64,000 nt of DNA from Nocardioidaceae bacterium (GTDB taxonomy: Bacteria; Actinomycetota; Actinomycetes; Propionibacteriales; Nocardioidaceae): contig JAUJOD010000001.1 in the NCBI GenBank assembly GCA_030447865.1, positions 544,909 to 608,908 of the forward strand, written 5' to 3'. Below are positions 43,505 through 63,136 of the stretch, piece by piece. The notes beneath the pieces were generated by a model, which had not been told where the DNA came from, did not search any database, and was given only the letters and a program-made list of their open reading frames with translations. Position numbers and translations under genes: made by a program. Numbering within the stretch: the first letter of the stretch is position 1; each line of letters opens with the position of its first letter.

Positions 43505-43525
43505 TCGACGAAAGGAGGTTGACGA

Positions 43526-44004: not shown

Positions 44005-44101
44005 CGCGGTCTCTGCGCCCTGGCGGTCGACGTACAGCCGAGGCGGACTTCAGGGCAGGAATTGGGTTGCGGCCCCCGCGCCCCAGCGTGAGGCTGCTGG
44101 C

Positions 44102-44827: not shown

Positions 44828-44920
44828 CGGTTCGCCGCGGCTCCGACGATCCACCGACCACACCTGAACGCCGAGCTCCCGCCGTCACCGCTTCGGGGAC
44901 GTCCTCGGACCTAAGGCATG

Positions 44921-44990
44921 TTCACCGGGTGAACGGCGGGTCAGACCTGACATTTCGGGCGCGGGAGCGACCCCTCACCTAGTGAAGGCG
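44921..44990. repeat. Intergenic repeat copy 2
   Basis: This 70-base stretch aligns without gaps to 33110-33179. It opens with TTCACCGGGTGAACGG, shares CATTTCGGGC exactly, and ends CACCTAGTGAAGG, the reverse form of the opening palindrome. It lies after the methyltransferase stop, as the first copy lies after a stop. The middle is less conserved. No gene covers it. Confidence 0.7.
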
Positions 44991-45282
44991 CCGGAAGCGC
45001 ATGGCTAGCGGTGCGAGAGCCGGGGCGCGACCTCCCAGCTGCGGTAGCTGGCGGGCGTCGGGAGGTGAGCTGCGGCGGCCGTAGCCGGCCCGCGCGGTCG
45101 GGATGCCGTCGCCGCGCAGGTTGTGTTGCGGCCGTACCGCGGCCCCGCTTCGTCGCTTCATAGTCATGCTGACTGATCGCGAGTCACATTCGCACTTTGC
45201 GTCGTCGCGGAGGTCGTGGTCTGCTGGCGCCCGGCCCGCGAGGATAGCGCGGCCACCGCAGCAGGCATCAAGGGAGCGCCCT

Positions 45283-46192: not shown

Positions 46193-46231
46193 GGGAACTG
46201 GGACGGCGACCATCGCCCGCTTGCTTGAGGC

Positions 46232-47128
46232 TCAGTGAGCGGGTCGCCGCAGCGGTGTGATTGCGGTGCGTGCGAGTTCTCCGATTGCGGTGTCGACGCG
46301 TGGTAGGTGGCGTTCGTTTCGTACCGCCTCGGTGAGGACGCTGACGGCGATCGGGTGCTCGTGTGGGAACTGGACGACTGCGGCCTCGTGGCGCAGGCGC
46401 CCGAGTGTTCCGGTCTTGCCGAACACGCCGACGTCGTCGTGGGGGAAGCCCGAGCCAAGGCGGTGTCGCCAGGCCTGGAGGCCCATGGCGTCTCGGACAC
46501 AGCGGTGCGAGGGGGTTGCTCGTTGCCACAGCCGGGCCAGCACCTGGCACATTTCGATCGCGGTGGACGCGCTGGAGTATGCGGGGTCGTACTCGCGGGT
46601 GTGCACCGCGTGGTCGGGGTCGGCGAGCCTGATGTGGACGTCGGTGGGCGTGGTCGCGCCGATCTCGCGCATGATCTGTCGCTGGACGGCGCCCGATCCG
46701 CGGCGTACCACCGTGCCTGGTACGCCGAGCGCGACTAGGTGAGCATTCAGCCGCTCCTTTCCGATGTGCTCGATCAGGGCGTCGGCACATGCGTTGTCCG
46801 ATACCGCCAGCATCAGGCGGGTGGCGTCGCGGGCGGTGAGAGTCACGTCGTCGAGGAGCATCGCTACGCCGGTGGGGCCCGGGGTCCGGCCTTGCCGGCG
46901 CATTCGGATCGGGGCACGCGAGTCGAGCTCGCCGGCGGCGACCAGGTCGGCCCACACCAACGCCAGTGGCAGCTTGTACAGGGAGGCGACCGCTACCGGT
47001 TCCGAACCGAGCAGGCCGATCTCCATTGAGGGCTCGGCAAGCCTGCGGGCGTGCAGGTTCACCCGAATGCCGGCGTCTGCCGCGATCGCGCGCAATTGGT
47101 CAACCACGTGTGCGTCGGTGGGACTCAT
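46232..47128 (-). CDS. Class A beta-lactamase-like serine hydrolase
   Basis: A 298-residue cytoplasmic-looking protein (no signal peptide). The SxxK nucleophile is SLYK (S49, K52), the SDN motif is at 110-112, and KTG is at 238. These three motifs place it in the class A beta-lactamase fold. No ExxLN omega-loop motif with Glu166 is visible, so true beta-lactamase activity is doubtful; an esterase- or amidase-type member is possible. Its start overlaps the end of the LysR gene by ATGA, so they are one transcript. Confidence 0.8.
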   Translation of the reverse strand: MSPTDAHVVDQLRAIAADAGIRVNLHARRLAEPSMEIGLLGSEPVAVASLYKLPLALVWADLVAAGELDSRAPIRMRRQGRTPGPTGVAMLLDDVTLTARDATRLMLAVSDNACADALIEHIGKERLNAHLVALGVPGTVVRRGSGAVQRQIMREIGATTPTDVHIRLADPDHAVHTREYDPAYSSASTAIEMCQVLARLWQRATPSHRCVRDAMGLQAWRHRLGSGFPHDDVGVFGKTGTLGRLRHEAAVVQFPHEHPIAVSVLTEAVRNERHLPRVDTAIGELARTAITPLRRPAH

Positions 47129-47959
47129 CGCGACAGGGCCCCCTCGAGGGAGGCCCTGACCGCCAGGTGCTCGACCTCAGGCCGTCGCGCCCGGACGGGC
47201 GGCAGCACGATCCTCACCCGTAGGGGCGGCACGGCCGGGTCCTGCCCAGTCTCGTCGATAGCCGGCCGCACCGAGACAGCCCGGTCAGCCGCGACCAGTG
47301 CATCGCGCTGGGCGGGGTCGCTGCTCTCCACCACGTCCCCCGGGGTGGCCGGCACGTCGTAGCGCATCCACGAACTGGTCGTGCGCCGGTGGCTGGTGGT
47401 GCCGCGGCGGCACCACCACCGGGCGGGCGATGCTGCGCAGGAGCGCGGACGAAGGACCTTCGGCGGTGACGAGTCGCTGCGCCAGGCGGAAGACGTCGCC
47501 GGGCTCGAGGCCATCCACCACGCCGGGGTGCCTGATCACAGCGACGTCCAGCAACCCGTCGTGGATCCGGTTGACGAGGGTGGTGCTCCCTGCAATCTCA
47601 GGTACGGCCTCCATGCCAGCGTCGACCAGATGTCGGCATAGGACTGGGATCGTGGGACCGAGGTCGCCACACAGGCCGAGGCGTACCTGGGTCGGCAGCG
47701 AGAGATGCTGGACGACCTGATGAAAGTCGTCAGCAACCCGGAGAACATCACGGGCCGGGCCCAAGAGTTGCTGGCCCGCTGGGGTGATGCGGACACCTCG
47801 CGCGTCGCGATCGAAGAGCCGAACGCCAAGGTGGCGCTCCAACCGTTGGATCCCTTGGGAGAGTGGCGGTTGGGTCATTCCCAGGTCCTGGGCGGCGTGA
47901 CCGAAGTGCCGGGCGTCGGCCACCGCGGCGAAGAAGCTGAGGTGTCGCAGCAGGTCCAC
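47125..47959 (-). pseudogene. LysR-family regulator, frameshifted
   Basis: From GTG 47959 the N-terminal HTH is intact (MDLLRHLSFFAAVADARHFGHAAQDLGMTQPPLSQGIQRLERHLGVRLFDRD), and the effector domain follows to about SIARPVVVPPRHH. Near 47370 the frame slips: the second frame gives MRYDVPATPGDVVESSDPAQRDALVAADRAVSVRPAIDETGQDP up to TGA 47125. Together they give a LysR protein of about 277 residues ending in a 4-base overlap with the serine hydrolase. A LysR box lies upstream. As assembled the C-terminus is lost. Confidence 0.75.
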
Positions 47960-47967
47960 CGCAACAG

Positions 47968-47984
47968 GATATGAGATCGCTATC
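47968..47984. promoter_or_regulatory. LysR box between divergent genes
   Basis: GATA-N9-TATC, an inverted repeat that contains the T-N11-A pattern of LysR operators. It is 9 bases before the LysR start and 57 bases before the penicillin-binding protein start, in the divergent gap where such a regulator usually binds to control both genes. Confidence 0.6.
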
Positions 47985-48040
47985 GTGCCGGGTCGTCGAT
48001 TGTCTTTGACTCTTGCGATGAAGCCTCAGAGGATCGCGTC

Positions 48041-49915
48041 GTGCGATTGCCTCCTCACGCCGCCGTGGCGTTGCTTTGCGTTCTGGGCGGGCTGGCCGCG
48101 TGCTCCGACGTTGACGGCGAGTCCGCCGACGAGGCCGCGGAGCAACTGGCTACCGGCCTGTCGACCCACTCGCTGGAGCAGGTCCAGCTCACCAGCGACG
48201 CGGACCGTGAGCGCTACGCGGAAGTTGTGCGCAACATGCGAGACCTCCCGGTGCAGGTGAGCGCCACAGAGGTGGACGAAGACGACTCGTCTGCAGCCGT
48301 CACGCTCGCATGGACGTGGACCTTGGGGGACTTAGAGTGGGCTTACGAGACCACCGTCGAACTGATCGACAGCGCCGGGACCTGGGAGCTCGACTGGGAA
48401 CCGCAGTCCGTGGCGCCCGGCCTGCGCGCCGGCGAGGCCCTCGATGTCGACCTGCTGACCGGTGAGCGGGGCGACATCCTCGGCGCCGGCGACCAGTCGC
48501 TCGTCACTGAGCGGCCCGTCGTGCGCTACGGCCTTAACAAAACCGCCACTAAACCGCGGCGGTGGAGGGACAGCGCCACGCGCATCGCCCGCGCCGTGGG
48601 GGTCGATGTGGCCAGTTTTCGTCGCAAGGTCGACGCCTACGGTGAGGCGGCTTTCGTGGAGGCCATCGTGCTGCGGACCGAAGATGCTCGGGAGCTGATC
48701 GACGCCGAGTACGCCGAGATTCCGGGGGCTGCCGTCATCGAGGACGAGATCCCGCTGGCGCCCACAAAGGAGTTCGCGGCACCGCTCCTCGGCACGGTCG
48801 GGATGGCCACCGCCGAGATCATCGAGGAGTCGAACGGGTCCATTCAGGAGGGCGATGAAGTCGGCCTGTCGGGGCTGCAGTCTCGCTATGACGGCCAGTT
48901 GCGCGGTGAGCCCGGTGTTCGTGTCCAAGCCGTCGACTCCTCGGGCGATGAACGGACCCTGTTCAGCAAGGGTGCCCGCGACGGCAAGGATCTCCGCACG
49001 ACGTTGGACCTGGACCTGCAGCTCAAGGCGGAGAGCGTCCTGGCAGAGTTCACCGCCGAGGCTGGGCCGCACAGCGCCTTGGTCGCGATTCGGCCCTCCA
49101 CGGGGGAAGTGGTCGCGGCGGCCAACGGGCCGACCAACGAGGGCTTCAACGCCGCGACAGCCGGGCAGTACGCGCCCGGCTCCACCTTCAAGGTGGTCAC
49201 CGCGCTGGCTCTGTTGCGGTCCGGTATCGCTCCGAGCGACGTCTTGGAGTGCGGTGCCACCACGGTGGTCGACGGCCGGTCGTTCAAGAACTACGACGAC
49301 TACCCGAGTGCCGGTCTTGGGTTGATCACGCTCACGCAGACGATCGCCAACTCGTGCAACACCGGGTTGATCAACACCCGCAGCGCCCTCGACGGGGACA
49401 CGCTGGCGCAGGCCGCTGCCGCGCTCGGTATGGGCGTCGACCACGACCTCGGCTTCCCGGCCTACTTCGGCCAAGTCCCTCCACCAGCCGGTGCCACCGA
49501 CCAGGCGGCCAGCCTGATCGGACAGGGCCGAGTCCTTGCCAGCCCGCTGACCATGGCAACGGTCGCCGCCTCGACCGCGGCTGGGGAAGCGGTCCTCCCG
49601 ATCCTCCTCCCGGACCTTCAGGTGCGTCAGCAGGAGCCGACAACGCCCCTCACGTCTACCGAGGCAGAGGAGCTGCGGGCCATGATGAGAGCCGTCGTCA
49701 CCGAAGGATCCGCCACCTTCCTCGCCGACCTGCCCGGCGACGTCGCCGCCAAAACCGGCACAGCCGAGTACGGAACCCCCGACGCGGCAGGCTCGCTATC
49801 CACCCATACCTGGATGATCGCCACCCAAGGCGACCTCGCAGTGGCCGTCTTCGTCGAAACCGGCCAGTCCGGGAAAGTGACCGCGGGCCCGATCCTCGAA
49901 GCGTTCCTTAGGTGA
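48041..49915 (+). CDS. Penicillin-binding protein with MecA-N domain
   Basis: A 624-residue cell-wall transpeptidase. A lipoprotein-type signal (ALLCVLGGLAAC) suggests anchoring outside the membrane. An NTF2-like MecA-N domain (about 25-130) is followed by a linker/dimerisation region. The transpeptidase domain has the nucleophile motif STFK (S381, K384), SCN (438-440) and KTG (K571, in AKTGTAEY). This resembles low-affinity class B enzymes such as PBP2a and PbpA-like proteins. GTG start. It lies opposite the LysR/serine hydrolase pair and precedes a broken lipoprotein gene. Confidence 0.9.
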   Translation: MRLPPHAAVALLCVLGGLAACSDVDGESADEAAEQLATGLSTHSLEQVQLTSDADRERYAEVVRNMRDLPVQVSATEVDEDDSSAAVTLAWTWTLGDLEWAYETTVELIDSAGTWELDWEPQSVAPGLRAGEALDVDLLTGERGDILGAGDQSLVTERPVVRYGLNKTATKPRRWRDSATRIARAVGVDVASFRRKVDAYGEAAFVEAIVLRTEDARELIDAEYAEIPGAAVIEDEIPLAPTKEFAAPLLGTVGMATAEIIEESNGSIQEGDEVGLSGLQSRYDGQLRGEPGVRVQAVDSSGDERTLFSKGARDGKDLRTTLDLDLQLKAESVLAEFTAEAGPHSALVAIRPSTGEVVAAANGPTNEGFNAATAGQYAPGSTFKVVTALALLRSGIAPSDVLECGATTVVDGRSFKNYDDYPSAGLGLITLTQTIANSCNTGLINTRSALDGDTLAQAAAALGMGVDHDLGFPAYFGQVPPPAGATDQAASLIGQGRVLASPLTMATVAASTAAGEAVLPILLPDLQVRQQEPTTPLTSTEAEELRAMMRAVVTEGSATFLADLPGDVAAKTGTAEYGTPDAAGSLSTHTWMIATQGDLAVAVFVETGQSGKVTAGPILEAFLR

Positions 49916-50487
49916 TCCACCAGCTGGCCCGGTGGTTTGCTGCCCTTCCCCTGATCGGGGTGGCCTGCACCGCTTGCGTCGCCGGCGACGCCCGGAAGGC
50001 GGCGGAACTGAACTGGAGTCGTCCCGATGCGGGGCAACGGTGGTGTCAGGTCCTCGGGAACTCCGAGATCACAGCGCTCATCGAGGCGGCCGACGAGTCG
50101 GGCTCGCCCTGGCAGACGATCGACTCGGGCGAGTTCGAGTAGGGCTGCACCATCGCGGCCACGATGGAGGGCCGCGGTCTCGACCAGGAGGAAACCCCGC
50201 CCCCACTACTCACCATCAACTCCAGCCTTATCGCCCCGAAGACCCCAGAGACCATCGCGGCCGGCAACTACATCCCTGTAGGCGCCGGCCTCACCGCGCC
50301 GGTCGCGTCTCACGGCCACGGGGTCTGGTCGGTGGAGCCGGCGGGGGAGTACTTCGCACGCAGGCCGTGCCCGCCCCTCGACTTCGCCGGTTCCGCCCCG
50401 CCGGATGATCTGCAGGTCCACCTGAGTGTCAACGACCCCGACGCTGTCGCCGCAGCCGAGGCGCACGGGTGCCGCCGCCGGCAGTGA
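49912..50487 (+). pseudogene. Lipoprotein gene interrupted by an in-frame stop
   Basis: GTG 49912 overlaps the previous stop. The product opens with a signal peptide ending GVACTAC, then CQVLGNSEITALIEAADESGSPWQTIDSGEFE and TAG at 50140. The same frame continues GCTIAATMEGRGLDQEETPPPLL with GVWSVEPAGEYFARRPCPPLDFAGS up to 50487, so one coding frame (about 191 residues) is cut by a single stop. A read-through or stop-codon error is possible. The family is not recognised, beyond a small secreted protein. Confidence 0.65.
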
Positions 50488-50646
50488 GATCTCGACACCT
50501 CGAGTCGGCCCCTCCGGGGACCAGGAAACGCTTGCGCGCGGCCTGCAGCTGACGGCCAGCGCTCGGCGATCTCGGCCCAGGTGTCGATGGCCAGAGTTGC
50601 TCCGTGAGATCGACAAGGGACTCAGAAACTCCCGCGTCGGCATCAC

Positions 50647-50890
50647 ATGGTTACCCCGGCGCTGCTAAGAAGCATCGAGGCCGAGGGCATCGCGGAGAAG
50701 GAACTCTCTGTGCTGCTCGCGAGCGGCCGGGTGATCCCCGTCGCCCACGGGACGACGTTCGAGGCCCCCCGGGGACGTCAGCCCCATGCTCGCCACGCAC
50801 TCCGGGCTGGACACCGCGGAGTCGTCCCTGGAAGACGTCGCCGCCAAGGTCGCCGCCGCCGCCGCGGCGCTCGCCGAGGACGAGGTCTGA
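50647..50890 (+). pseudogene. Small frameshifted ORF
   Basis: MVTPALLRSIEAEGIAEKELSVLLASGRVIPVAHGTTFEAP runs in one frame, and the adjacent frame then gives DVSPMLATHSGLDTAESSLEDVAAKV and ends LAEDEV with TGA at 50888-50890. The first part is faintly like the N-terminal helix-turn-helix of AbiEi-type antitoxins (an ELxxLxxSGRxxPVxxG pattern). A single-base shift near 50770 would join them. Identity weak. Confidence 0.35.
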
Positions 50891-51577
50891 CGGGATGACG
50901 CGCGACGCCCCCCGGGACCCTCTGGTGTCGGGGCATGGGCGCTGGCGACTTCCCGACCGCCCTTTCAGTCGATTTCATGCGAGCGCGGACCTGCGCCGTC
51001 GTGCACCGCCCGGGGCGCCCCCTAGTGACAGTGACGCGCCCGACCCCGTCGTCGAGCACGACGCGTGGCTCCCCGAGCGTCCGTGCGGCCTCGTAGTCTG
51101 GGTCCCGCCAGAGACCAGGACGCTGCCTCGTTCCGCGAGTGATACGGTTCGCCGCTCCCGCCGGCCAGCACCGCCTCGGCGCGTTCCCTGAGCCAGCGAA
51201 CGGTTGCCATCGGAGTCACTTACGCACCTTCTGAGGTTGTGCCCGAGGTGATCGACGCAGTCCGAGGAGCCCGTGTCCCTCCGGCGCCGTCCGTCCCGCC
51301 GGCCAACGGGAGTGCACCCCGGAGGGGTGCACTCCGATTCGCAGATCTCCGCGAGCTGTCCCAGAAAGTTGCCGTGGAGTGATCGCCCAACATCAGCACT
51401 GCGACTTAGGTGACTGAGACGAGCACCCACAACCACACCAGGAGGAAACGCCTCAGTAACGGTGACAACCGAATATCACGAGGCTCCAAACCGCCGGCCC
51501 CACGAAGTTGGCGCGGGGAATGGACGAAGCCCCGGGTCCGAGGACCCCGGATCCGAGGACACGGGGCCTGTCTGACG
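50891..51577. other. Gene-poor stretch with decayed fragments
   Basis: No intact gene is visible. Minus-strand pieces such as MATVRWLRERAEAVLAGGSGEPY (51022-51210) and DYEAARTLGEPRVVLDDGVGR (about 51000-51105, another frame) look like one decayed ORF. A plus-strand frame from 50895 (MTRDAPRDPLVSGHGRWRLP) is also possible. The stretch contains the hairpin at 51309-51335 and leads into repeat A. Confidence 0.4.
51309..51335. terminator. Strong 12-bp hairpin
   Basis: GGAGTGCACCCC-GGA-GGGGTGCACTCC is a perfect 12-bp stem with a three-base loop. It lies in the gene-poor stretch before repeat A. It has no U-run on either strand, so a rho-independent terminator is possible but not proven. Confidence 0.5.
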
Positions 51578-51754
51578 CGTGCGCGAGGGGGGAGTTGAAC
51601 CAGAGCGATCTGACGCTGCGTTTCACTGTTTTCGCAGGTCAAAGCGGGTTTCGCCGCTCCCGTTGCCTCCCGTTGAACACCCTTTCCAGGTGGGGTGTGC
51701 TACACGAGGTAGCACCAGCGAGATCTTGAGTTGAGTACGGCGGAGTCCCGCCGG
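51578..51754. repeat. Flanking direct repeat A
   Basis: This sequence aligns to 54698-54873 with a constant offset of 3120 and a single gap near the end; over 150 compared bases about 137 match. It has long identical runs around GGAGTTGAAC, TTCGCAGGTC, GCGGGTTTCGCCGCTCC and CGTTGCCTCCCGTTGAACAC. It bounds one side of the metallopeptidase/deaminase module. It does not fold into a tRNA. Confidence 0.8.
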
Positions 51755-51859
51755 ACGCCCTACAGACTACCCGGAGCGGCCGAATTCGAGCGAGCCTCGC
51801 TGCATGGCGATGCTGCCGAAAAGGTTGCGGCGCCCTCCATGACTTCCGGTGGTTGCCAC

Positions 51860-53748
51860 TCAGCCCAAAAGTTCGCTCTCCGGATCATCCCGGACGCGTG
51901 AAAATTGAGGACCGGTGGGGTACTCGTACTTCTCGTTGCTTGCTGATCCCGGACTCGTCGTCCACAGAACGAGTTGAGCGATCCGTTCCCCTGGCGTCAA
52001 CGCGATGGGGACTGTGCTCAAATTCACGAGTTCAAAGTTAAACATCCGTGAAGGTTTGGGTGCACTTGCACCGCGGTGGCAGACAGGAGGCCGAGACGTC
52101 CATAACTCGACCTCGTGAGCACCTGCGCCGTCAGATCAGCCGGAATTACCAGGTACTCCAAGGTAGCACCCAGCACGAGCTCGCCAGGGTGGAGCATATA
52201 CTTCTCGTCCCAGGCCATCTCATAGGCAATTTGCATGGAACGGGGATCCTGTTTGCGATTCAACGGATCAAACGCACTCGTGCTGCTTCGGCGGAAAGCT
52301 ATAAAGTGTCGCCCCACGCGCAGGTCCAATCCTGCGCCACGTGGCAGGTGCACCAGCGGCGTAGCTACAATCGCGTGCTCGTCGGTTCTTTGTAGGCGAC
52401 CGAGCAGATCGGCAGCGGATAGCGCACCGCCCGAAGCGGGCGGTATACCGGCGGGATTACCGGACGCATCAAGGCCGTTCGGTCTGGTCGCACCTCTCTT
52501 ATGCCAGCGATCGATAAACGTGATGGAGTCGATCGCCTTTTTCCCCAACTTGTCGTAAGGCGTTTTGGCGTCCTCCCTGCGGGCGATCCACGCCGCGTTG
52601 ATGACGTCGGAGTCGACAGGCCGTGCCGAGGATGCGTCGGCCAATTGGATGACGTCGGTCCCAGGTACCCCAGCGTGCAACCGATCCGCAATCTCGCCGA
52701 TCGCGGCAACGCGCTCAGCGAATGGATACGCTCCTGTGCCCATGCCATGCGACACACTCTCCAAGTCCGCAACGTGCGAGCTGAACAAGGCCGAGAGATA
52801 GTCAGCCCACGCCTCTGATCTGGGTGTTGTTCTTGAAAGCACATCTACCCAGGGAGCGAGCGTTCCGCTTAGGCGCGAGTCAATGACAATGCCTAGAGAA
52901 TCAAGAAGCAGCTTGATTCGAAGATTTCCGGGTGGATGCGTTGTGTTGAGGTCGTCCATCGCCCCAATCACCGTGAAGTACTCTGCCAGAGCGCAGACCG
53001 CAGAGGGGCCAAACCTACTGAGGGCATAGAAGTCGCACAACAGTTCCGTTGCCCAGGACATTGCAATCTGATAGAGGCCCCTCGCTATTTGTCGGGAATC
53101 GTTAGTCCCGCGTGCTTGAGGATTATGAAAAGTGCCGGCGCTGGAAAAGTCGAACTTCTGCCGCAAATCATATTGATCCAACAGTGAATGCTCGGCAACA
53201 GCTATGTGAGCAACTTCGTGACCTAGGAGTATCGGGCTCCACACAATGCCGTTTCCTTCGATGCGCGGTACCTGAAATAGCGCGAACTTTTCAGGGGGTA
53301 CCGTTTTGCCGCCATAACGGTAGACTACGCGGCTAACGTCACCATAGGTTGTCAGAAAGTTGTCCACTTTGCCGTGGGACAGGACAACACCATAGTCACT
53401 AACGCTAAGCCCCTGCAGCTCCTCGCGTAGTTGCTCGAGAAGTGCGTGTGAGAGCTCTGGGCGAGTACCGTGCGACAGGTGAAGATCAACAAATCCTGCT
53501 ACCGCAACCGTTCCGCGAAGGAACCCGGAGAGGATCTGATACAACGCATCGTCATCGACACTGTTTTGCACCTCGTATTCGAGCGCAGAGCGCAACTCAT
53601 CCGGATACTTTCCAAACAGCTCCAGTATCCTTCGATGATCAGCCCGCTTGGTAGAGAGTGCTCCGAGCAACCGATTGACGGTTTCCTCGAGCACTTCTGC
53701 TCTTGCCAGCAGAGCCTTCTCCAGTGCCTGGTTGAGCTGGTTGGCCAT
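51860..53748 (-). CDS. HEXXH metallopeptidase-like protein fused to dCTP-deaminase-like domain (frameshifted near the 3' end)
   Basis: From ATG 53748 one frame gives 574 residues to TGA 52024. Residues 1-160 are helical. A metallopeptidase-like site follows: GHEVAHIA (H177, E178, H181) and ATELLCDFYAL (candidate third ligand E235). From about 465 to the end is a dCTP-deaminase/dUTPase fold: GAGLDLRVGRHFIAFRR, LHPGELVLGATLEYLVIPADL, RSSYGRLGLL and NLHGCLT. The frame then stops, but the next frame runs on as FELVNLSTVPIALTPGERIAQLVLW to TGA 51860. One missing T near 52037 explains this. The repaired protein has about 629 residues and regains the catalytic Glu of deaminases (FEL). The fusion is not a family I know. 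Confidence 0.75.
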
Positions 53749-53760
53749 CGCGTTACGCCC

Positions 53761-54231
53761 TCAGAGCGCTACTGTGTGCTCGCCTACCCTGCCTGTTTCT
53801 CTCAGCGCCGAATCTGAGAGGGAGCGCAAGATCTCTATCAATCGATCCGTCGCTGCGGAGGAATCACCCTCACGGGCCGCTCGGAGCTGAGATGCAACCC
53901 GCTCGAGGAAGTCTGCGAAGTCCCCCGTCCCACTGACGTCTTGAATGGTGTCGATCGCCGCGTCGACTTGAGATGCGAGCGCACTAGTCGGTTGCCGACC
54001 TGATGTCCCGTGGGTTGCGAAGAACTCGACCGCATGGGCCGCTTGCACCATGAGGCTGGCTAGGGACTCCAACGTGGAGAGGTCCCGTGAGTCGAGGTTG
54101 TGCCCCTGCTGTACCCGCCGCAGGGAGGCAGTCGCTCGGGAGGACAACACAGCTAGGTCGACGAAGCCGGCATCGTTCCCCAAGAGGTCGTGAGACGAAG
54201 CACCGCTGTTTGATCCCTTATTTGCAGTCAC
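53761..54231 (-). CDS. Hypothetical partner of the metallopeptidase/deaminase protein
   Basis: A 156-residue, mainly helical protein (SSRATASLRRVQQGHNLDSRDLSTLESLASLMVQAAHAVEFF, and ADFLERVASQLRAAREGDSSAATDRLIEILRSLSDSALRETG). It lies 12 bases upstream of the large fusion gene on the same strand, so both are one transcript. GTG 54231 has AAAGGGG 5 bases before it; a longer frame has no site. No motif is recognised. The pairing suggests a dedicated partner, sensor or inhibitor; that is inference. Confidence 0.55.
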   Translation of the reverse strand: MTANKGSNSGASSHDLLGNDAGFVDLAVLSSRATASLRRVQQGHNLDSRDLSTLESLASLMVQAAHAVEFFATHGTSGRQPTSALASQVDAAIDTIQDVSGTGDFADFLERVASQLRAAREGDSSAATDRLIEILRSLSDSALRETGRVGEHTVAL

Positions 54232-54246
54232 GATAACCCCTTTGAG

Positions 54247-54262
54247 TCGAACGTATGTTCGA
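54247..54262. promoter_or_regulatory. Inverted repeat in the divergent promoter
   Basis: TCGAAC-GTAT-GTTCGA lies between the divergent partner gene and the winged-helix gene, 16 bases before the partner start. A related CTTCGAATCC stands 23 bases before the winged-helix ATG. The winged-helix protein is the likely ligand; binding is inferred. Confidence 0.5.
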
Positions 54263-54354
54263 AGTGTCTCATCTGCCACCTCCACATGCAATGACCCTAC
54301 TCGTTACGATCTAATTCCAAATGCTAACTTCGAATCCAGAAGGAGCGTGTCGCG

Positions 54355-54636
54355 ATGGAGGTCGAGGACTTCTCGGATCAGCTCTTCGGCCGCTACCGCG
54401 CTCTCCGTATCTACAGCGTCATCGCCTCGATGTCAGACAAGTTCACAACCGCCGAGGTGGCTCGTCTGAGCGACGCCGCGGGCCCAGACTGCTCGAAGGA
54501 ACTCCGCAGGCTGGTCGATCTAGGGGTACTTCGCACCGTCGACCGTCGCGGAGCCTACGAGCGCCCCGCGTCCCAGTTCTGGATCGCGATGGGGATGCTC
54601 GCGGAGTACGCGGAGGATGAGCGCCGCGTGCGTTAG
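54355..54636 (+). CDS. Small winged-helix regulator
   Basis: A 93-residue protein. FGRYRALRIYSVIASMSDKFTTAEVARLSDAAGPDCSKELRRLVDLGVLRTVDRRGAYERPASQFW is a winged helix (recognition helix DCSKELRRLVDLG, then a basic wing). GAAGGAG stands before the ATG. It is divergent from the two-gene module and probably controls it through the inverted repeat between them. Confidence 0.7.
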   Translation: MEVEDFSDQLFGRYRALRIYSVIASMSDKFTTAEVARLSDAAGPDCSKELRRLVDLGVLRTVDRRGAYERPASQFWIAMGMLAEYAEDERRVR

Positions 54637-54697
54637 CGCCTCTTTAGCAATCAGCCCAGATCCAGCCGATCGAACAGCGGCTCACCTGCAACTCGCT

Positions 54698-54873
54698 CGT
54701 GCGCGAGGCAGGAGTTGAACCAGAGCGACCTGACGTTCCGTTTCAACGTTTTCGCAGGTCAGAGCGGGTTTCGCCGCTCCCGTTGCCTCCCGTTGAACAC
54801 CGTCTCCAGGTGGGGCGTGCTACACGAGGTAGCACCAGCGCGATGTTGAGTTGATCTCGGCGAAGCCCGCCGG
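54698..54873. repeat. Flanking direct repeat B
   Basis: The second copy of the repeat at 51578-51754, in the same orientation, 3120 bases away. The two copies lie on either side of the metallopeptidase/deaminase module, like the ends of an inserted or transferable unit. The rest of 54637-55078 holds no gene. Confidence 0.8.
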
Positions 54874-55078: not shown

Positions 55079-56557
55079 GTGCACGTGATCACAGGCGACT
55101 TGAAGGCCAAGGTTGACCGCATCTGGGACTCGTTCTGGTCCGGCGGCATCAGCAACCCGCTCGAGGTCATCGAACAGATCACCTACCTGCTCTTCCTGCG
55201 CCGTCTCGACGACCTGCAGACCCTCGCCGAGAAGAAGGCTCGCCTCACCGGCGGGGTGATCGAGGACACCAAGTTCCTGCCAGGGCAGGAGCACCTGCGG
55301 TGGAGCAGGTTCAAGAACCTCGACGCCGACCTTATGTACACGACCGTCGCCACCGAGGTGTTCCCCTTCCTCCAACGGTACGGCGAACAGGTCGGCGGCG
55401 ACGACTCGACGTACTCCGACCACATGAGGGACGCGCGCTTCACGATCCCGACCGCTGCCCTGCTGTCCAAGGTCGTCGACATGCTCGACGACATCCCCAT
55501 GAACGACCGGGACACCAACGGGGACCTGTATGAGTACCTGCTGTCCAAGATCGCCTCGGCCGGGGTCAACGGACAGTTTCGGACGCCGCGGCACATCATC
55601 AAGCTGATGGTGGACATGGTCGCCCCAGAGCCGACCGACGAGATCTGCGACCCGGCCTGTGGGACCGCGGGCTTCCTGGTGGCAGCCAGCGAGAACATCC
55701 GCGAGACGCACCCGACCGCGCTGACCGACGCTACACAGCGCCAGCACTTCCATCGCTCGATGTTCCACGGCTACGACTTCGACTCCACCATGCTCCGCAT
55801 CGGCAGCATGAACATGCTCCTGCACGGCATCGAGGCGCCCGACATCCGCTACCGGGACTCGTTGTCCGAAGGAGCGAGTGCGGTCGCCGAGAAGTACACA
55901 TTGGTTCTCGCCAACCCTCCCTTCGCCGGCTCCCTCGACTACGAAGCGACGTCCAAGGACCTGCAGCGCGTCGTGAAGACCAAGAAGACCGAGCTGCTCT
56001 TCCTTGCGCTGTTCCTCAAGCTCCTCAAGCCCGGGGGCCGAGCCGCGGTCATCGTTCCCGACGGCGTGCTGTTCGGTTCGTCCAACGCGCACAAGTCGCT
56101 GCGCAAGACGTTGATCGAGGACCAGAAGCTCGACGCCGTCGTCAAGCTGCCTTCAGGTGTCTTCCGGCCGTATGCCGGGGTCTCCACCGCGATTCTGTTC
56201 TTTACCAAGACCAACTCCGGCGGCACGGACGAGGTTTGGTTCTACGACGTTCGGGCGGACGGGTTCTCGCTGGACGACAAGCGCAACCCGGTCGAGGTCA
56301 ACGACCTCCCCGATGTGCTGGCTCGCTGGGCCTTGCGGACGACAACCGAACGGCACCGTCCCCGCACCGACCAGTCCTTCTCCGTGTCCAAAGCCGACAT
56401 CGTCGCCCAGGGATACGACCTCTCCCTGAACCGCTACAAGGAGATCGTCCACGACGAGGGCGAACACCGCCCTCCGTCAGAGATCATCGCTGACATCGAG
56501 CAGTTGGAGGACGAGATCGCCAAGGGCCTGGCCGAGCTGAAGGCAATGCTCTCGTGA
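55079..56557 (+). CDS. hsdM: Type I restriction-modification methyltransferase subunit HsdM
   Basis: A 492-residue adenine-N6 methyltransferase. The N-terminal helical domain ([36 protein letters not shown]) binds HsdS. The SAM motif is [13 protein letters not shown] (from about 191), and the catalytic motif is NPPF (about 279). [19 protein letters not shown] and a C-terminal coiled region ([20 protein letters not shown]) complete it. It protects host DNA with HsdS. GTG 55079; its stop overlaps hsdS by GTGA. Confidence 0.96.
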
Positions 56558-57690
56558 GGACGGCCCGGCTGAGCGATGTCGCGAAGCTCGACTACGGGTT
56601 CGCTTTCGATTCGAAGCGGTTCAACAAAGAGGGTCGCGGCTTGCCACTCGTGCGCATTCGTGACGTTGTCCCCGGCCGCTCCGACACGTACTACTCCGGG
56701 GAGTACACCGATCGCTACCTCGTGGAGGACGGCGACTTCTTGATCGGCATGGACGGTCAGTTCAACCTGGCGTGCTGGCAAGGAGGCAAGGCGCTACTCA
56801 ACCAGCGAGTCTGCCGTATCGGCGCCCTCGACGACTCGCTCGACCGTGCCTACCTTGCTCGGTTCATGCCCGCCGCACTCAAAGCCATTGAAGACTCGAC
56901 ACCATTCGTTACGGTGAAGCATCTCTCCGCTGGGGTCTTGGGCGGCGTTCGAGTACCCCTTCCCCCCCTACCCGAGCAGCGCCGCATCGCCGCGATCCTC
57001 GACCACGCCGACGCCCTCCGCACCAAGCGCCGCCAAGTCCTCGCCCACCTCGACGCCCTCACCCAGTCGATCTTCCACGAAATGTTCGGCGACACGCCTC
57101 CGGACGCGACAGTGGGCGACATCGCCGAAATCCAGGGTGGCCTTCAGGTGTCGGCTAAGCGCAGCTCACTCCCAGTTGAAGTGCCCTATCTCAGAGTTGC
57201 GAATGCACACCGGGGCCGGGTGGACCTGAGCGAGGTCAAGACCTTGCGCGCGACCGAAGCTGAGGTCGTGCGTACTCGGCTCGTACCTGGGGATCTGCTT
57301 TTCGTGGAAGGCCACGCGAATCCTATGGAGGTTGGGCGCGTTGCAATGTGGAGTGACGAGATCCCGAAGTGCGTTCACCAAAATCACCTGATCCGGGGCC
57401 GAGTCAACCAGTCTCGCGTGTTGCCGGTCTTTGCCGCCACGTGGCTAAATACCTACGCTGGTGCGGCCCACTTCCGACGGGCAGGTAACACAACCTCAGG
57501 CCTCAATACGATCAGCGCCTCCGTCGTGCGCAGCGCTCCGATTCCGTTGCCGTCGCTAGGGCTTCAGCACCAATTCGTAGCTCGGGCACAGCACGTAGCG
57601 GCCCGACGGACCTCCGTGCGGCGCGCCCTAGCTGCCAACGACGAGCTCTTCGCCTCCCTCCAGTCCCGCGCCTTTCGAGGGGAGCTGTGA
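56554..57690 (+). CDS. hsdS: Type I restriction-modification specificity subunit HsdS
   Basis: A 378-residue protein with two target-recognition domains (about 1-140 and 185-340). Each ends in a conserved spacer helix: LPPLPEQRRIAAILDHADALRTKRRQVLAHLDALTQSIFHEMFG between them, and PIPLPSLGLQHQFVARAQHVAARRTSVRRALAANDELFASLQSRAF at the end. It defines the bipartite DNA target for HsdM and HsdR; the target cannot be predicted from sequence alone. Confidence 0.94.
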   Translation: MRTARLSDVAKLDYGFAFDSKRFNKEGRGLPLVRIRDVVPGRSDTYYSGEYTDRYLVEDGDFLIGMDGQFNLACWQGGKALLNQRVCRIGALDDSLDRAYLARFMPAALKAIEDSTPFVTVKHLSAGVLGGVRVPLPPLPEQRRIAAILDHADALRTKRRQVLAHLDALTQSIFHEMFGDTPPDATVGDIAEIQGGLQVSAKRSSLPVEVPYLRVANAHRGRVDLSEVKTLRATEAEVVRTRLVPGDLLFVEGHANPMEVGRVAMWSDEIPKCVHQNHLIRGRVNQSRVLPVFAATWLNTYAGAAHFRRAGNTTSGLNTISASVVRSAPIPLPSLGLQHQFVARAQHVAARRTSVRRALAANDELFASLQSRAFRGEL

Positions 57691-57693
57691 CCG

Positions 57694-58782
57694 ATGCCAG
57701 TTGAGATGAGGATGTGGCGCATCGATGGCGACCAGCCCCGGCCGCTGACAGCCGCGGTGCTTCCTGCCGAGAAGGATCTCCACCAGTTCCTCGCCCAAGA
57801 CGCTTCGTTGCTTGGTGAGCGGCTCTTGGTCGTCGGGAGTGAAGTGCTGACGCCGTACGGCAAGCGCATTGACCTGCTGGCGATCGATGCCGACGGCAAC
57901 CTACACCTGCTGGAGCTCAAACGCGACAAGACCCCGCGTGAGGTAGTCGCCCAAGCGCTCGACTATGGCTCATGGGTCTCGACCCTGTCGCGCGACCACG
58001 TCATCGACATCGCGACTGGGCATCTCGACGAGCGGTTCGAGGTCGCATTTGAGCGCGTATTCGACAGTCCACCGCCCGACGAGTTGAACGGCGAATTGCA
58101 CCTCACCATCGTGGCGGCCGAGCTGGACGGCAGCTCAGAGCGCATCGTCACCTACTTGCGTGGCTTCGGCGTGCCCGTCAATGCGGTCTTCTTCTCGTAC
58201 CTGGAGGACGAAGGGCGGCGCTACCTCGCGCGGAGTTGGCTGGTCGACGATCAGGTGGTCTCCACCGCGCCGGGTTCGAAGAAGAGCAAGCGCGCGCAGT
58301 GGAACGGTCAGGACTGGTACGTCAACTTCGGCACCCACGGCCGCGACTGGCAAGACGGTCTAGAGGTCGGATTCGTCTCAGCCGGCGGATCGCCGCGTTC
58401 GTCAAGGACGTTGCGCACCATCCCCGTGGGCGACCGTGTCAACGTCTACGTTCCGGGGAGTGGCTATGTCGGGGTGGGGGTGACTCTCGCGGAGGCCAAG
58501 CGGTTCGATTCCGCGCTCATTCAGCGTGACGGCCAATGGGCGCCTCTCGCCAGACAGGAGCTACGTGGAAGCTACCGGCATGCCGCACCCGAGAAGGTGG
58601 AGACAGACGACTTCGCCGAGTGGGTGCTCCCCGTCAAGTGGCTGACCGCCGTTCCCCTGGATGCGGCGTTTAGCGAGCCAGGCCTCTTCTCGAACCCCGG
58701 CACGTCGTGCAAGCTGCGCCAGGAGTTCACGCTGGAACGACTGGCTGCTCACTTCGATCTCGACAAGGACGGCGAGGACTGA
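57694..58782 (+). CDS. NucS/DUF91-like nuclease domain protein
   Basis: A 362-residue protein starting 3 bases after the hsdS stop. The N-terminal part holds a PD-(D/E)XK core: GKRIDLLAIDADGNLHLLELKRDKTPREVVAQALDYGSW (D near 53, then ELK). That is the form seen in NucS/DUF91-type nucleases. A central domain (IVAAELDGSSERIVTYLRGFGVPVNAVFF) and a C-terminal domain with HAAPEKVETDDFAEWVLPVKWLTAVPLDAAF follow. Its position within a type I operon suggests an accessory nuclease or DNA-end binder for the system. Confidence 0.78.
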   Translation: MPVEMRMWRIDGDQPRPLTAAVLPAEKDLHQFLAQDASLLGERLLVVGSEVLTPYGKRIDLLAIDADGNLHLLELKRDKTPREVVAQALDYGSWVSTLSRDHVIDIATGHLDERFEVAFERVFDSPPPDELNGELHLTIVAAELDGSSERIVTYLRGFGVPVNAVFFSYLEDEGRRYLARSWLVDDQVVSTAPGSKKSKRAQWNGQDWYVNFGTHGRDWQDGLEVGFVSAGGSPRSSRTLRTIPVGDRVNVYVPGSGYVGVGVTLAEAKRFDSALIQRDGQWAPLARQELRGSYRHAAPEKVETDDFAEWVLPVKWLTAVPLDAAFSEPGLFSNPGTSCKLRQEFTLERLAAHFDLDKDGED

Positions 58783-58889
58783 TGAGCAACTTCGACTTCA
58801 CGAAGACCAAGCCCGCCGATCTGCGCCTGGCTGCTCGCGCGGCACGCTGCGCCCTGGTGATGAGTTCCATTCGCTATCGGTCTGAGTGA
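58782..58889 (+). pseudogene. Leftover copy of the hsdR start
   Basis: ATG 58782 overlaps the nuclease stop. MSNFDFTKTKPADLRLAARAARCALVMSSIRYRSE is 35 residues, then TGA. The first 19 bases match those at 59759-59777, the true hsdR start. The ORF looks like the first part of hsdR cut short, as if hsdR once followed the nuclease gene directly and the toxin-antitoxin pair was inserted behind a duplicated start. Confidence 0.6.
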
Positions 58890-58968
58890 CCAACTTTCAA
58901 GCGGCGATAGCACGGCCGGGTTCTGCAGGCCCATATCGACAGCGATAACAGTTGGTTACGCTGTGTTC

Positions 58969-59412
58969 ATGGACATCCGAGCGGAGCGGCGGGCCGCTAG
59001 TCTGAGCCAGTCACAGCTGGCTAGGGCTGCAGGAGTCCCGCAGCCAAACCTGTCGGCGTACGAGAACGGTCGCCGGGTGCCCTCTCCAGAGGTACTGGAA
59101 CGGATCAACCGCGCGCTCAGGGGACGACCCTCCGCGCGGGTCAATCAGCACCGAGACTCGATCCGGGCCCTGGTGGCTAAGCATCACGCCGTCGCGCCCC
59201 GGATCTTCGGGTCCGTCGCGCGAGGGGACGACGAGCCCGGGTCTGACATCGACCTGCTCGTCGATTTCACCGACGAAGCGTCACTGCTTGACGAGATCGG
59301 CCTTCGGCTGGCACTTTCCGACCTCCTCCAGGTCGAGGTCGACGTGGTAGGTGCAGACAGTCTCAAGGGCCAGGTACGTGAGCGGGTCCTGCGAGAAGCG
59401 GTGGCGGTGTGA
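58969..59412 (+). CDS. mntA: HTH-MntA fusion antitoxin (nucleotidyltransferase)
   Basis: A 147-residue protein. An XRE-type HTH (LSQSQLARAAGVPQPNLSAYENGRRVPSPEVLERI) is fused to a MNT nucleotidyltransferase domain with GSVARGDDEPGSDIDLLVDF (about residues 81-97, the GS-N9-DxD metal site). MntA-type antitoxins AMPylate a tyrosine of the HepT toxin to silence it. ATG 58969 is preferred over a GTG six bases upstream. It overlaps hepT by GTGA. Confidence 0.9.
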   Translation: MDIRAERRAASLSQSQLARAAGVPQPNLSAYENGRRVPSPEVLERINRALRGRPSARVNQHRDSIRALVAKHHAVAPRIFGSVARGDDEPGSDIDLLVDFTDEASLLDEIGLRLALSDLLQVEVDVVGADSLKGQVRERVLREAVAV

Positions 59413-59762
59413 CGGAGTCGCAACGGAAGGCACTCGACGCGGCCGAGCGCGTTGTCGCCGTTTGCGACGTCCTTGTGGGCTTGGTTCCGTCCGACGTCGA
59501 CGCCTTTGCGGCCGACTTACGCACGCAGTGGGCCGTCGAGATGGGTCTCATCCGCATCGGCGAGGGCGTCAACCGAATCCCCGACGAGGTGCTCGAGCTC
59601 TTTTCCGAGCAGCCCTGGCGGCAGATCATCGCCATGCGCAACTTCGCCGCCCACCAGTACGACGACCTCGACCCCCGGCGAGTGTGGCGCACGGTCACCC
59701 GCGACGTTCCCCGCCTGCGCGCCTACCTCGTCGAAACAGTCATCCCGGGGCTCGAACGATGA
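59409..59762 (+). CDS. hepT: HepT-like HEPN toxin
   Basis: A 117-residue HEPN-domain protein. The RNase motif is RNFAAHQY (R77, H82, Y84), the R-X4-H-X-Y that HepT uses both as catalytic site and as the AMPylated tyrosine. LRTQWAVEMGLIRIGEGVNRIP and PWRQIIAMRNFAAHQYDDLD are the HEPN helices. It should cut RNA unless MntA modifies it. The stop overlaps the ATG of hsdR by ATGA. Confidence 0.92.
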   Translation: MTESQRKALDAAERVVAVCDVLVGLVPSDVDAFAADLRTQWAVEMGLIRIGEGVNRIPDEVLELFSEQPWRQIIAMRNFAAHQYDDLDPRRVWRTVTRDVPRLRAYLVETVIPGLER

Positions 59763-62700
59763 GCAACTTCGACTTCATCCAGAAGACTCTGCCGGCGGTC
59801 CACGCCGACTGCGTGCGTGCGGAGTCCTACGTCTCCAGCGACCCCGCGGCCGCGTGCTTCTACAGCCGGCGAGCGATCGAGCAGCTCGTGAGGCACCTGT
59901 ACGACGTGATGGGTTTGCCCGCGCCGTACCAGAACGACCTCGCCGCTCGACTCAACGACTCGGCGTTCAAGGCGAAGGTCGGAGTCGGGATCACCTCGAA
60001 GCTGAACCTCATCCGACGGGTCGGGAACACCGCTGCCCACGAAGGTAGGCCGATCCAAGCGCAGACGGCGCTCCAGGTGCTGCGCGAGCTCTTCCACGTC
60101 GTGGTGTTCGCCGCCTTCCGGTACTCCACCGACCCGCGAGGTGTGCCGACCAGCAAGCAGTTCGACCCGTCGCTGGCCGCGAAACGCGCACCGTTGTCGC
60201 GACCCGAACTCGTCGCTCTTGCAGCGAAGTTCCGGGCCCAAGACGCTGCGCACGCCAAGGCGCTGGCGGACAGGGACGAGCTGGCAGCGGCCAAGGACGC
60301 CCAGATCGCCGCACTCAAACTGCAGATCGCCACTGCTCAGGCGGAGAACACCGAGCAGGACCACCACGACTACTCGGAAGCCGAGACCCGCCGCCTGATC
60401 ATCGACGTCCTGTTGGCCGAGGCCGACTGGCCGTTGGACCAGCACCGGGACCGGGAGTACCCGGTCTCGGGCATGCCGAACGCTGCCGGCACGGGGTTCG
60501 TCGACTACGTGCTTTGGGGTGCCGATGGCCGCCCGCTCGCGGTGGTCGAGGCCAAACGTACGACTACGAGCCCGCAGGTCGGGCAGCAGCAGGCGAGGCT
60601 GTACGCCGACTGCCTCGAAGCGGAGTTCGGGCGTCGGCCGGTGATCTTCTACACCAACGGCTACCAGTACTGGGTCTGGGACGACGCCGCGTTCAGCGCT
60701 TCCGGGCGGGGCGGCTACGCGGCGCGAGAGGTCCAGGGCTTCTACACCCGCGACGAGCTGGAGCTGCTGATCCAGCGGCGGGAGACCCGGCTGCCGCTCG
60801 CCGGGGCGCCGGTGGACGCAGCGATCGTCGAGCGCTACTACCAGACCAGGGCGATCAAGGCGGTGGGTGCCGCGTTCGACGGCCGGCAGCGCGAGGCGCT
60901 CCTGGTGATGGCCACCGGGTCGGGCAAGACCCGCACCGTCATCGCGCTGGTCGACCAGCTGATGAAGGCCAACTGGGTCAAGCGGGTGCTCTTCCTCGCC
61001 GACCGGACCGCTCTGGTCAACCAGGCCGTCGGTGCGTTCAAGACCCATCTGCCGGGCGTCACCACCGTCAACCTGGTGACCGAGAAGGCGACGGACGGGC
61101 GGGTGTACGCGTCGACGTACCCCACGATCCTGAATCTCGTCAACGAGGTGGAGGGCGGCCAACGCAGGTTCGGACCCGGCTACTTCGACCTCATCGTGAT
61201 CGACGAGGCCCACCGCTCGGTTTACCAGAAGTACGGCGCAATCTTCGACTGGTTCGACTCCTACCTCGTGGGTCTCACCGCGACCCCGAAGGACGAGGTC
61301 GACCACAACACCTACCGGCTCTTCCACCTCGAGGACGGCGTCCCCACCGACGCCTACGGGTTGGACGAGGCGGTGGACGACGGGTTCCTCGTGCCGCCGT
61401 TCGGGGTGTCGGTCGGCACCAAGTTCCTCCGCCAGGGCATCACCTACGCCGACCTGAGCGAGGAGGAGAAGGACGAGTGGGACGCCCTGGACTGGGGCGA
61501 GGACGGTCCGCCGGACGCGATCGACTCCGAAGAGCTCAACCGGTTCCTGTTCAACGAGGACACCGTCGACAAGGTGCTCGCCAGCCTGATGACGGACGGC
61601 TACAAGGTCGCCGGCGGCGACCGGATCGGCAAGACGATCATCTTCGCCAAGAACCAGGCGCACGCCGAGTTCATCGAGCAGCGGTTCAACATCCAGTACC
61701 CCGAGTACGGCGGCGAGCTCGCCCGGGTGATCACCCACCACGCGACGTACGCCCAGAGCCTCATCGATGCTTTCAAGCAACCAGACAAGGCGCCGCACAT
61801 CGCGATCAGCGTCGACATGCTCGACACTGGCATCGACGTGCCCGAGGTCCTCAACCTGGTGTTCTTCAAGATGGTCCGTTCGAAGTCGAAGTTCTGGCAG
61901 ATGATCGGCCGGGGCACCCGCCTGCGCCCGGACCTGTTCGGACCCGGGGAGGACAAGAAGGACTTCTTCGTCTTCGACTCCTGCGGCAACCTCGACTACT
62001 TCAGCCAGGATCTCCCCGGCTCCGAGGGGTCGCTGCAGAGGTCACTCACTCAACGGCTGTTCGAATCGCGGCTCGGACTGGTCGTCGCTCTCGACGACGC
62101 CAGCGCGGCGCCGGAGCTGCGGGAGTCGGCAGCGACGTGGCTGCACGAATTCGTGGCCGGGATGAACCTCGACAACGTCCTCGTCCGCGCGCACCGTCGC
62201 CAGGTTGAGACCTGGACCGACCGCAAGCGGTGGGCTTCGGTGTCCAAGGACGACGCGGGAGAGATCCTCGAGCACCTGGCTGGCCTGCCGTCCGCCGTAC
62301 AAGACCCGGACGAGGACGCCAAACGCTTCGACCTGCTGGTGCTGCGCCGCCAGCTCGCGCAGCTCGACGGGGATGCGGTCACAGCCGAACGGGTCCGCGA
62401 GACCGTGCAGGCCATCGCCGCCGCGCTGTTGTCGAAGCGAACCATCCCATCGGTCGCCGAACAGCTCCCGCTGCTCGACGACGTGGCCGGCGACGAGTGG
62501 TGGGTCGACGTCACGCTCCCGGTGCTCGAAGTCATGCGGCTGCGGCTGCGCGAGCTGGTCCGCTTCGTGGAGAAGACATGGCAGAGCCCGATCTACACCG
62601 ACTTCGAGGACACCCTTGACGACGCCATCCCGGTCGACCTGCCCCAGGTGACCTCCGGGATGAACTGGGAACGGTTCCGCGCGAAAGCGCAGGCGTACCT

Positions 62701-63136
62701 CAAACAGTACGAGAACCACGTCGCCCTGCAGAAGCTGCGCCGCAACAAGCCGCTCACCAACGACGACCTCGACTCACTCGCCGAGATGCTCATCGCTTCC
62801 GGAGGCGACCAGCAGGTCGACATTGCCTGGGTCACCGAACGCGCCGGGGCGCTCGGCCCGTTCATCCGCTCCCTCGTCGGCCTCGACCGCGTCGCCGCGA
62901 CCGAAGCGTTCGCCGCGTACCTAGACGAGACGAAGTTCTCCGTCGAACAGGTGCGGTTCGTCTCCTTGATCGTCGACGAGCTCACCACCAACGGAGCCAT
63001 GGAACCCGCGCGGTTGTTCGAGTCGCCCTATACCGACCATGGCCACGTCGACGTCATCTTCCCGCAGGACGTCGAGGTCATCGTTGAGATCCTTCGCGAT
63101 GTCAATCGCAACGCCCTGCCAGCCGGCGCCGCGTGA
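59759..63136 (+). CDS. hsdR: Type I restriction enzyme endonuclease subunit HsdR
   Basis: A 1125-residue protein. Residues 1-120 are a DUF4145 domain (MSNFDFIQKTLPAVHADCVRAESYVSSDPAAACFYSRRAIEQL). The PD-(D/E)XK nuclease has D249 and E264 with K266 (FVDYVLWGADGRPLAVVEAKR). The SF2 motor has Walker A ATGSGKT (385-391), DEAH at 482-485, and motif VI in QMIGRGTRLRPDL. A long C-terminal helical domain binds HsdM. ATP-driven translocation precedes cleavage of unmodified DNA. Its ATG overlaps the hepT stop. Confidence 0.96.
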   Translation: MSNFDFIQKTLPAVHADCVRAESYVSSDPAAACFYSRRAIEQLVRHLYDVMGLPAPYQNDLAARLNDSAFKAKVGVGITSKLNLIRRVGNTAAHEGRPIQAQTALQVLRELFHVVVFAAFRYSTDPRGVPTSKQFDPSLAAKRAPLSRPELVALAAKFRAQDAAHAKALADRDELAAAKDAQIAALKLQIATAQAENTEQDHHDYSEAETRRLIIDVLLAEADWPLDQHRDREYPVSGMPNAAGTGFVDYVLWGADGRPLAVVEAKRTTTSPQVGQQQARLYADCLEAEFGRRPVIFYTNGYQYWVWDDAAFSASGRGGYAAREVQGFYTRDELELLIQRRETRLPLAGAPVDAAIVERYYQTRAIKAVGAAFDGRQREALLVMATGSGKTRTVIALVDQLMKANWVKRVLFLADRTALVNQAVGAFKTHLPGVTTVNLVTEKATDGRVYASTYPTILNLVNEVEGGQRRFGPGYFDLIVIDEAHRSVYQKYGAIFDWFDSYLVGLTATPKDEVDHNTYRLFHLEDGVPTDAYGLDEAVDDGFLVPPFGVSVGTKFLRQGITYADLSEEEKDEWDALDWGEDGPPDAIDSEELNRFLFNEDTVDKVLASLMTDGYKVAGGDRIGKTIIFAKNQAHAEFIEQRFNIQYPEYGGELARVITHHATYAQSLIDAFKQPDKAPHIAISVDMLDTGIDVPEVLNLVFFKMVRSKSKFWQMIGRGTRLRPDLFGPGEDKKDFFVFDSCGNLDYFSQDLPGSEGSLQRSLTQRLFESRLGLVVALDDASAAPELRESAATWLHEFVAGMNLDNVLVRAHRRQVETWTDRKRWASVSKDDAGEILEHLAGLPSAVQDPDEDAKRFDLLVLRRQLAQLDGDAVTAERVRETVQAIAAALLSKRTIPSVAEQLPLLDDVAGDEWWVDVTLPVLEVMRLRLRELVRFVEKTWQSPIYTDFEDTLDDAIPVDLPQVTSGMNWERFRAKAQAYLKQYENHVALQKLRRNKPLTNDDLDSLAEMLIASGGDQQVDIAWVTERAGALGPFIRSLVGLDRVAATEAFAAYLDETKFSVEQVRFVSLIVDELTTNGAMEPARLFESPYTDHGHVDVIFPQDVEVIVEILRDVNRNALPAGAA

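Follow-up and report, generated by a model that had tools for sequence, protein, structure and literature searches.

Direct repeats ending in a tRNA-Leu sequence probably delimit an integrase-less cassette in a Nocardioidaceae genome

Our results indicate that two direct repeats flanking a three-gene module, in a 64,000-nucleotide stretch of a Nocardioidaceae genome (the window), are very probably attachment (att) sites of a tyrosine integrase that targets tRNA-Leu genes, and that the module is probably a stacked cassette without an integrase of its own. Each repeat would be the right end of one inserted element, formed by a putative integrase-binding arm of about 150 nt followed by a core derived from the tRNA-Leu 3' end. 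Under the recombination chemistry and route of transfer that we infer, a new circular element would integrate at the tRNA gene and displace the earlier ones, giving rise to a tandem array on the same strand. Here, the array would comprise the tRNA-Leu gene, an integrase island with type I restriction genes (up to copy 2), the three-gene cassette (up to copy 1) and the left end of the next cassette. The module could have been brought in, or could be mobilised, by an integrase belonging to a neighbour or helper, acting in trans or on a composite to which the module belongs. Recombination between the repeats or an unknown mobiliser had been suggested in the original prediction; this is revised here, given that the repeats appear to be tRNA-Leu attachment sites and that an integrase family occupies the tRNA end of such arrays.

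The repeat pair and its tRNA-derived core

Similar direct repeats in the same orientation, about 3120 bp apart, had been predicted, and they are real: 171 nt are 89% identical in ungapped alignment, with a start-to-start spacing of 3120 (Table 1), and a gapped alignment carries the match out to 51773 and 54893. A search of the whole genome (3.1 Mb) recovered two copies only, the second with 90% identity (E 1.1e-62), which excludes chance as well as a generic, multi-copy dispersed element unrelated to gene cargo. An exact 23-base pattern taken from the repeat had no match in the genome contigs. A short motif from the middle of the repeat recurs at unrelated places in other genomes (near position 1500 of L005, L006, L007, L009 and L011), one of them in a terminator after a tRNA-Val.

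Read on the minus strand, both copies terminate in the 3' end of tRNA-Leu(CAG), with two differences in copy 2. The core was recognised through the tRNA-Leu(CAG) of a relative and then by pattern in the genome itself. The intact tRNA-Leu(CAG) gene lies outside the window, at G000:C3:617750-617834, in the same orientation and 18 kb to the right of copy 2. A tyrosine integrase gene starts about 0.1 kb after it, also in the same orientation, and is frameshifted, being split over two frames. The island thus has an intact tRNA at one end, a displaced tRNA fragment at the other and an integrase, albeit frameshifted. The site consensus consists, in order, of a palindromic arm, about three direct repeats of about 10 bp, a short inverted repeat and the tRNA core, and the reverse complement of the outer arm of the repeat is present between the tRNA and the integrase start. 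In this genome and in a genus mate, the arm variant beside the integrase is the one found in the repeats of this genome; most other arrays have a different variant in common, and G242 has a third. Across genomes, the arms next to the integrase covary with those of the repeats, and this matching ties the integrase to the repeats.

Table 1. Features of the repeat-bounded region (window coordinates)
Feature	Position	Strand	Remarks
Putative class-B left end	51237..51583	-	Terminator, conserved ~200 nt and arm palindrome; directly left of copy 1
Putative att, copy 1	51578..51748	-	Right end of three-gene cassette; palindromic arm, tandem ~10 bp arm repeats, tRNA-derived core
Core of copy 1	51580..51600	-	Identical to part of a relative's tRNA-Leu(CAG) 3' end
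Rest of deaminase-like domain, other frame	51860..52045	-	Continues the domain in a different frame
574 aa ORF	52024..53748	-	N-terminal HEXXH zinc-peptidase-like region, C-terminal dCTP-deaminase-like domain; frame broken near 3' end
156 aa small protein	53761..54231	-	Conserved partner; 34% and 20% identity in two relatives
93 aa protein	54355..54636	+	Winged-helix/AbiEi-like according to weak profile matches; conserved partner, 42% identical in one relative
Putative att, copy 2	54698..54868	-	Right end of tRNA-proximal integrase island and left boundary of three-gene cassette
Core of copy 2	54700..54720	-	Differs from copy 1 at two positions
hsdM	55079..56557	+	Cargo of integrase island right of copy 2
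hsdS	56554..57690	+	Integrase island right of copy 2
PDC-S11 candidate defence nuclease (NucS/Shedu-like)	57694..58782	+	Integrase island right of copy 2
ORF containing hsdR	59351..63136	+	Homology from residue 138; integrase island right of copy 2

The claim that the repeats enclose only a three-gene module is correct locally, where three ORFs are found, but both repeats are part of a larger island that extends to tRNA-Leu(CAG). No integrase lies between them, as had been stated. Copy 1 closes the three-gene module, whereas the integrase island that ends in copy 2 is 18 kb long and contains the type I restriction genes at 55-63 kb of the window. Embedded in the restriction operon, at 57694-59762, are the gene of the PDC-S11 nuclease and a PDC-S09-like gene that combines an HTH with a nucleotidyltransferase; next to the latter is an ORF of 117 aa without a family match, which we take to be its HEPN partner.

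In G002 and G036, tRNA-Leu(CAG) is located beside fhaA, and the genes of window 34-38 kb are found downstream of it; in G002 this is also the case for the genes of window 32-33.5 and 40.6-41.6 kb. This synteny points to a variable region that begins here at about 41.6 kb in the window and reaches as far as the tRNA. There is no clean empty site for this genome: in G002, where the locus is syntenic, tRNA-Leu(CAG) is followed by 5.2 kb of different DNA before the first shared gene. The genes at window positions 41640-51237, a region absent from that locus, include one of the beta-lactamase family (46232-47128), one for a LysR regulator and one for a penicillin-binding protein that has a MecA_N-like domain.

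Sites, arrays and integrases across the family

BLAST of the repeat over 197 relatives was poorly productive, with 12 matching genomes including its own and mostly short chance or tRNA matches, so a sequence-only profile was built from four repeat copies. When searched over 341 Nocardioidaceae genomes, the profile matched 115 at E<=0.01, many of them weakly and with little beyond the tRNA; weak matches (E 0.001-0.01), many of which extend hardly beyond the tRNA-derived end, were left out of the counts. At E<=1e-6 an att was found in 44 of the 341 genomes. An order-wide scan of 391 genomes gave a site at the same threshold in 24, of which 23 belong to Nocardioidaceae.

We examined 36 spans from 32 of the 44 genomes, containing 50 sites at E<1e-6. 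ARAGORN found a tRNA-Leu in 17 spans (CAG in 12, GAG in 5), in every case on the same strand and upstream of the sites. The readable cores match the local isoacceptor in all 17 arrays; one of the two G382 sites is truncated and coreless. No full site was present in the stretch examined at 20 further tRNA-Leu loci.

Two to four sites on the same strand occur in 11 of the 36 spans, which is not a frequency, as the spans were picked for having matches. After exclusion of 19 segments open at one side, 31 are bounded on both sides, 17 of them starting at a tRNA and the remaining 14 at another att. The integrase family is present in 8 of the 17 tRNA-proximal segments and in none of the 14 internal ones, and among the families listed it is the sole one common to all eight integrase segments. 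The tRNA-proximal segment of G382 carries the integrase as broken pieces only. Across the family, the integrase is encoded in 26 of 341 genomes at E<=1e-60, and att was found in 19 of these 26 vs 25 of the other 315 (Fisher p 8e-14, uncorrected for kinship). As a counterpoint, several genomes have integrase-less arrays without any close integrase: among 11 genomes with sites but no intact adjoining integrase, 7 have distant integrases only (mostly about 25-40% identity), 3 have no integrase match at E<=1e-10, and the other is G382 with its broken copy. Phage relatives of the integrase are about 30% identical among the matches listed (216 records). In G296, G353 and G442, no more than about 50 bp separate the arm side of a site from the start of the integrase gene, which points away from the site; in this lineage the integrase occupies the right end.

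The segments begin in two different ways. In integrase islands the core is followed by a terminator, arm sites and then the integrase. At 14 other starts (class B) there is a terminator with about 200 conserved nt, unlike the integrase type, and eight of these open bounded integrase-less segments. Two of the 36 spans (G365_C81 and G080) show an integrase-type left end after the att with no integrase match there. Class B might instead be the left end of another integrase lineage, but the bounded class-B segments contain no integrase by homology, and none of the 15 largest shared families listed is represented in every one of these segments. The class-B sequence to the left of copy 1 finds independent support in a pairwise match at E 7.5e-29, the profile value of E 2.6e-64 being circular, as this sequence is among the 14 from which the profile was built. 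It suggests that a further cassette begins there, the right end of which was not found. After copy 2 there is neither left-end class nor a terminator, so the left end of the three-gene module itself is eroded or atypical.

Cassette exchange and the origin of the module

Evidence for movement comes from a 7.36 kb integrase-less cassette encoding IetA, IetS and AbiTii, which is 99% identical from att to att in G318 and G349. The chromosome on the tRNA side is 74-81% identical between both genomes and the downstream flanks are unmatched. On the left the arms differ and similarity reaches the level of the cassette only just past the core, whereas on the right identity stops just past it; the boundaries of the exchange are thus at the core or within about 20 nt of it. 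In addition, G078, G349 and G437 share an integrase island of 27 kb, with 99% identity along about 20 kb, and the tRNA-side flanks of these three genomes differ by roughly 17-26%. The context of the island varies: no second site was found in G078, in G349 it precedes the IetAS/AbiTii cassette, and in G437 it precedes a 9.6 kb integrase-less cassette with QatABCD (QatA-D). Near-identical units between diverged flanks indicate that integrase-less units have, to judge from these comparisons, moved recently, alone or in company.

The proposal that the repeats bound an exchangeable cassette is therefore upheld, since different cargo between two such repeats was sought in relatives and found, and one cassette is shared across species; the repeats are not unrelated to cassettes in related genomes. 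Cargo is not restricted to defence, as an integrase-less cassette of G334 (L104, 5080-16418) carries metabolic-looking genes including an AraC-type regulator. Small tRNA-Leu(GAG) cassettes in G387 (L113) and G392 (L150) encode a CopG-type protein and a PIN-domain protein, possibly as toxin-antitoxin cargo.

None of the three genes of the window module is an integration or transfer gene. In the 574 aa protein, a weak match to Peptidase_M48 accompanies a dCTP-deaminase domain, and the HEXXH motif is kept in three relatives, itself counted; its AlphaFold model has a pLDDT of 33. Plasmid and phage searches with this protein returned only matches to the dCTP-deaminase domain, covering about 10-21% of the query, among the matches listed. 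The order of the three genes is kept in G112, where they adjoin hsdR, and G199 has two of the three, the large gene there lying in two frames. Among 84,980 species genomes scanned, the module was located at two loci, both in Nocardioidaceae (Marmoricola and Nocardioides); judging by identity and position, these are probably the genomes G112 and G199 again. At L063 and L064, the only other known locations of the module, no att was found nearby. PADLOC gave no match for the first two proteins and only a weak PDC-M05A match for the third, and did not assign the module to a known defence system. The neighbouring defence genes make it a candidate anti-phage system, a role that we infer from them only. 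The break in the peptidase-deaminase gene (52024-52045) may be real decay or a sequencing error, and the frameshift of the integrase may likewise be due to decay or to assembly errors. The module is probably an integrase-less cassette that is likely frozen at present: with the broken integrase frame and the two core differences, it is probably immobile now unless helped.

A stronger form of this proposal, which we advance tentatively, is that the integrase-less segments are dedicated non-autonomous cassettes of 2-37 kb, moved in trans by one integrase family, and that the module is a new defence system. If so, Nocardioidaceae would possess an integron-like, tRNA-anchored system that stacks exchangeable defence arrays at tRNA-Leu, where each cassette, with its own conserved left end and right attachment arm of about 150 nt, would move as a precise unit. 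It is also possible, though doubtful, that the module is a cis-mobilizable remnant that lost its integrase by deletion, within plain tandem accretion as in the streptococcal and Dehalococcoides islands. Such tandems are documented in the portions of the literature available (PMC5704250, PMC3146451), the sequence after copy 2 fits neither left-end class, and the integrase of this genome is frameshifted. As an account of integrase-less cassettes in general, accretion of remnants is at odds with the many that have a common left end unlike the integrase type and with a whole cassette 99% identical across diverged species, which is unlike a dead remnant. For the window module itself, a purely decayed origin is possible.

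Homologous recombination between the long repeats could also swap cassettes with no site-specific enzyme, and 171 nt at 89% identity would permit it. We consider this improbable, given the differing left arms of G318 and G349, with similarity rising just past the core, and the loss of right-end identity at the same place; furthermore, the repeats end in tRNA sequence and the intact tRNA lies beside an integrase. Least probable is that the repeat encodes a structured small RNA regulating or marking the cassette, a small RNA having been suggested earlier: the palindrome has compensatory changes in 2 of 17 predicted pairs, but matching arm sequences beside the integrase gene explain these without an RNA, the consensus energy of the whole repeat (-16.4 kcal/mol over 28 sequences) includes a covariation term of only -0.19 kcal/mol, so that no conserved covarying structure spans the repeat, fold z-scores are -1.1 to -1.9, and there is no Rfam match at the repeats.

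Relation to known mobile systems

Attachment by a tRNA-Leu-targeting integrase, as preferred here, bears on the open problem of how defence genes without a recombinase move between strains. The cassette boundary can be read to a few bases and a candidate enzyme and sites can be named, which makes mobilisation in trans directly testable. The shared arm also provides a search handle, in that any DNA between two arms is a candidate cassette, and it is in this way that the peptidase-deaminase module stands out.

In integrons, integrase-less cassettes with a shared recombination site are inserted serially at a fixed landing site, an outline that resembles the arrays described here. An integron is defined by an IntI integrase and attI beside the array; in contrast, these arrays begin at tRNA-Leu with a phage-type integrase that is borne by a cassette and not fixed beside the array, the target is a tRNA gene and the cassettes measure 2-37 kb. 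With regard to attC-type folded sites, no conserved fold of the whole site was seen over 28 repeats. The tycheposons of Prochlorococcus likewise have tRNA 3'-end repeats between stacked cargo and a tyrosine recombinase. Anti-phage dCTP deaminases are known, and the module shares with them a dCTP-deaminase-like domain in a defence-rich island; in this case, the domain is fused to a HEXXH peptidase-like region and has two partner genes.

The cis-mobilizable elements (CIMEs) are defined, in the available part of PMC5704250, as decayed ICEs or IMEs. Like CIMEs of the ICESt1/ICESt3 type in that account, the module lacks an integrase, is bounded by att-type sites and lies in tandem with an integrase-bearing element; it has no integration or transfer genes. 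Concerning decay, no ICE or IME remnant genes were seen in the module, class-B left ends differ from the integrase type and the module's own left end is atypical. Unlike the CIMEs covered there, many of the integrase-less cassettes here have in common a conserved left end of their own, and one cassette is shared between species at 99% identity. The ssrA islands of Dehalococcoides, 16 with an integration module and 15 without, are similarly arranged in tandem downstream of a tRNA-like gene, as far as the accessible text of PMC3146451 goes. They use a serine recombinase, an ssrA target and a repeat of only 20 bp, whereas the arrays described here have a phage-type tyrosine integrase, tRNA-Leu and an arm of about 150 nt at each boundary. 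The additive flexible islands of Methylophilaceae (PMC10872708) also show recurring tRNA 3'-end repeats between stacked cargo modules; in that other lineage the repeat is the last 20 bp of the tRNA, and the part of the article at hand mentions neither a long arm nor two left-end classes. A study of genomic islands in Nocardioides and other Gram-positives (PMC11706625) does not describe these arrays in the portion available, and a literature search of partial coverage, mostly of abstracts, found no description of the Nocardioidaceae system. Tandem tRNA/tmRNA islands with integrase-less members and cis-mobilizable elements are thus already known from the accessible sections of these papers, and what is new here is that the boundaries share a long arm and that a left-end class exists apart from the integrase type.
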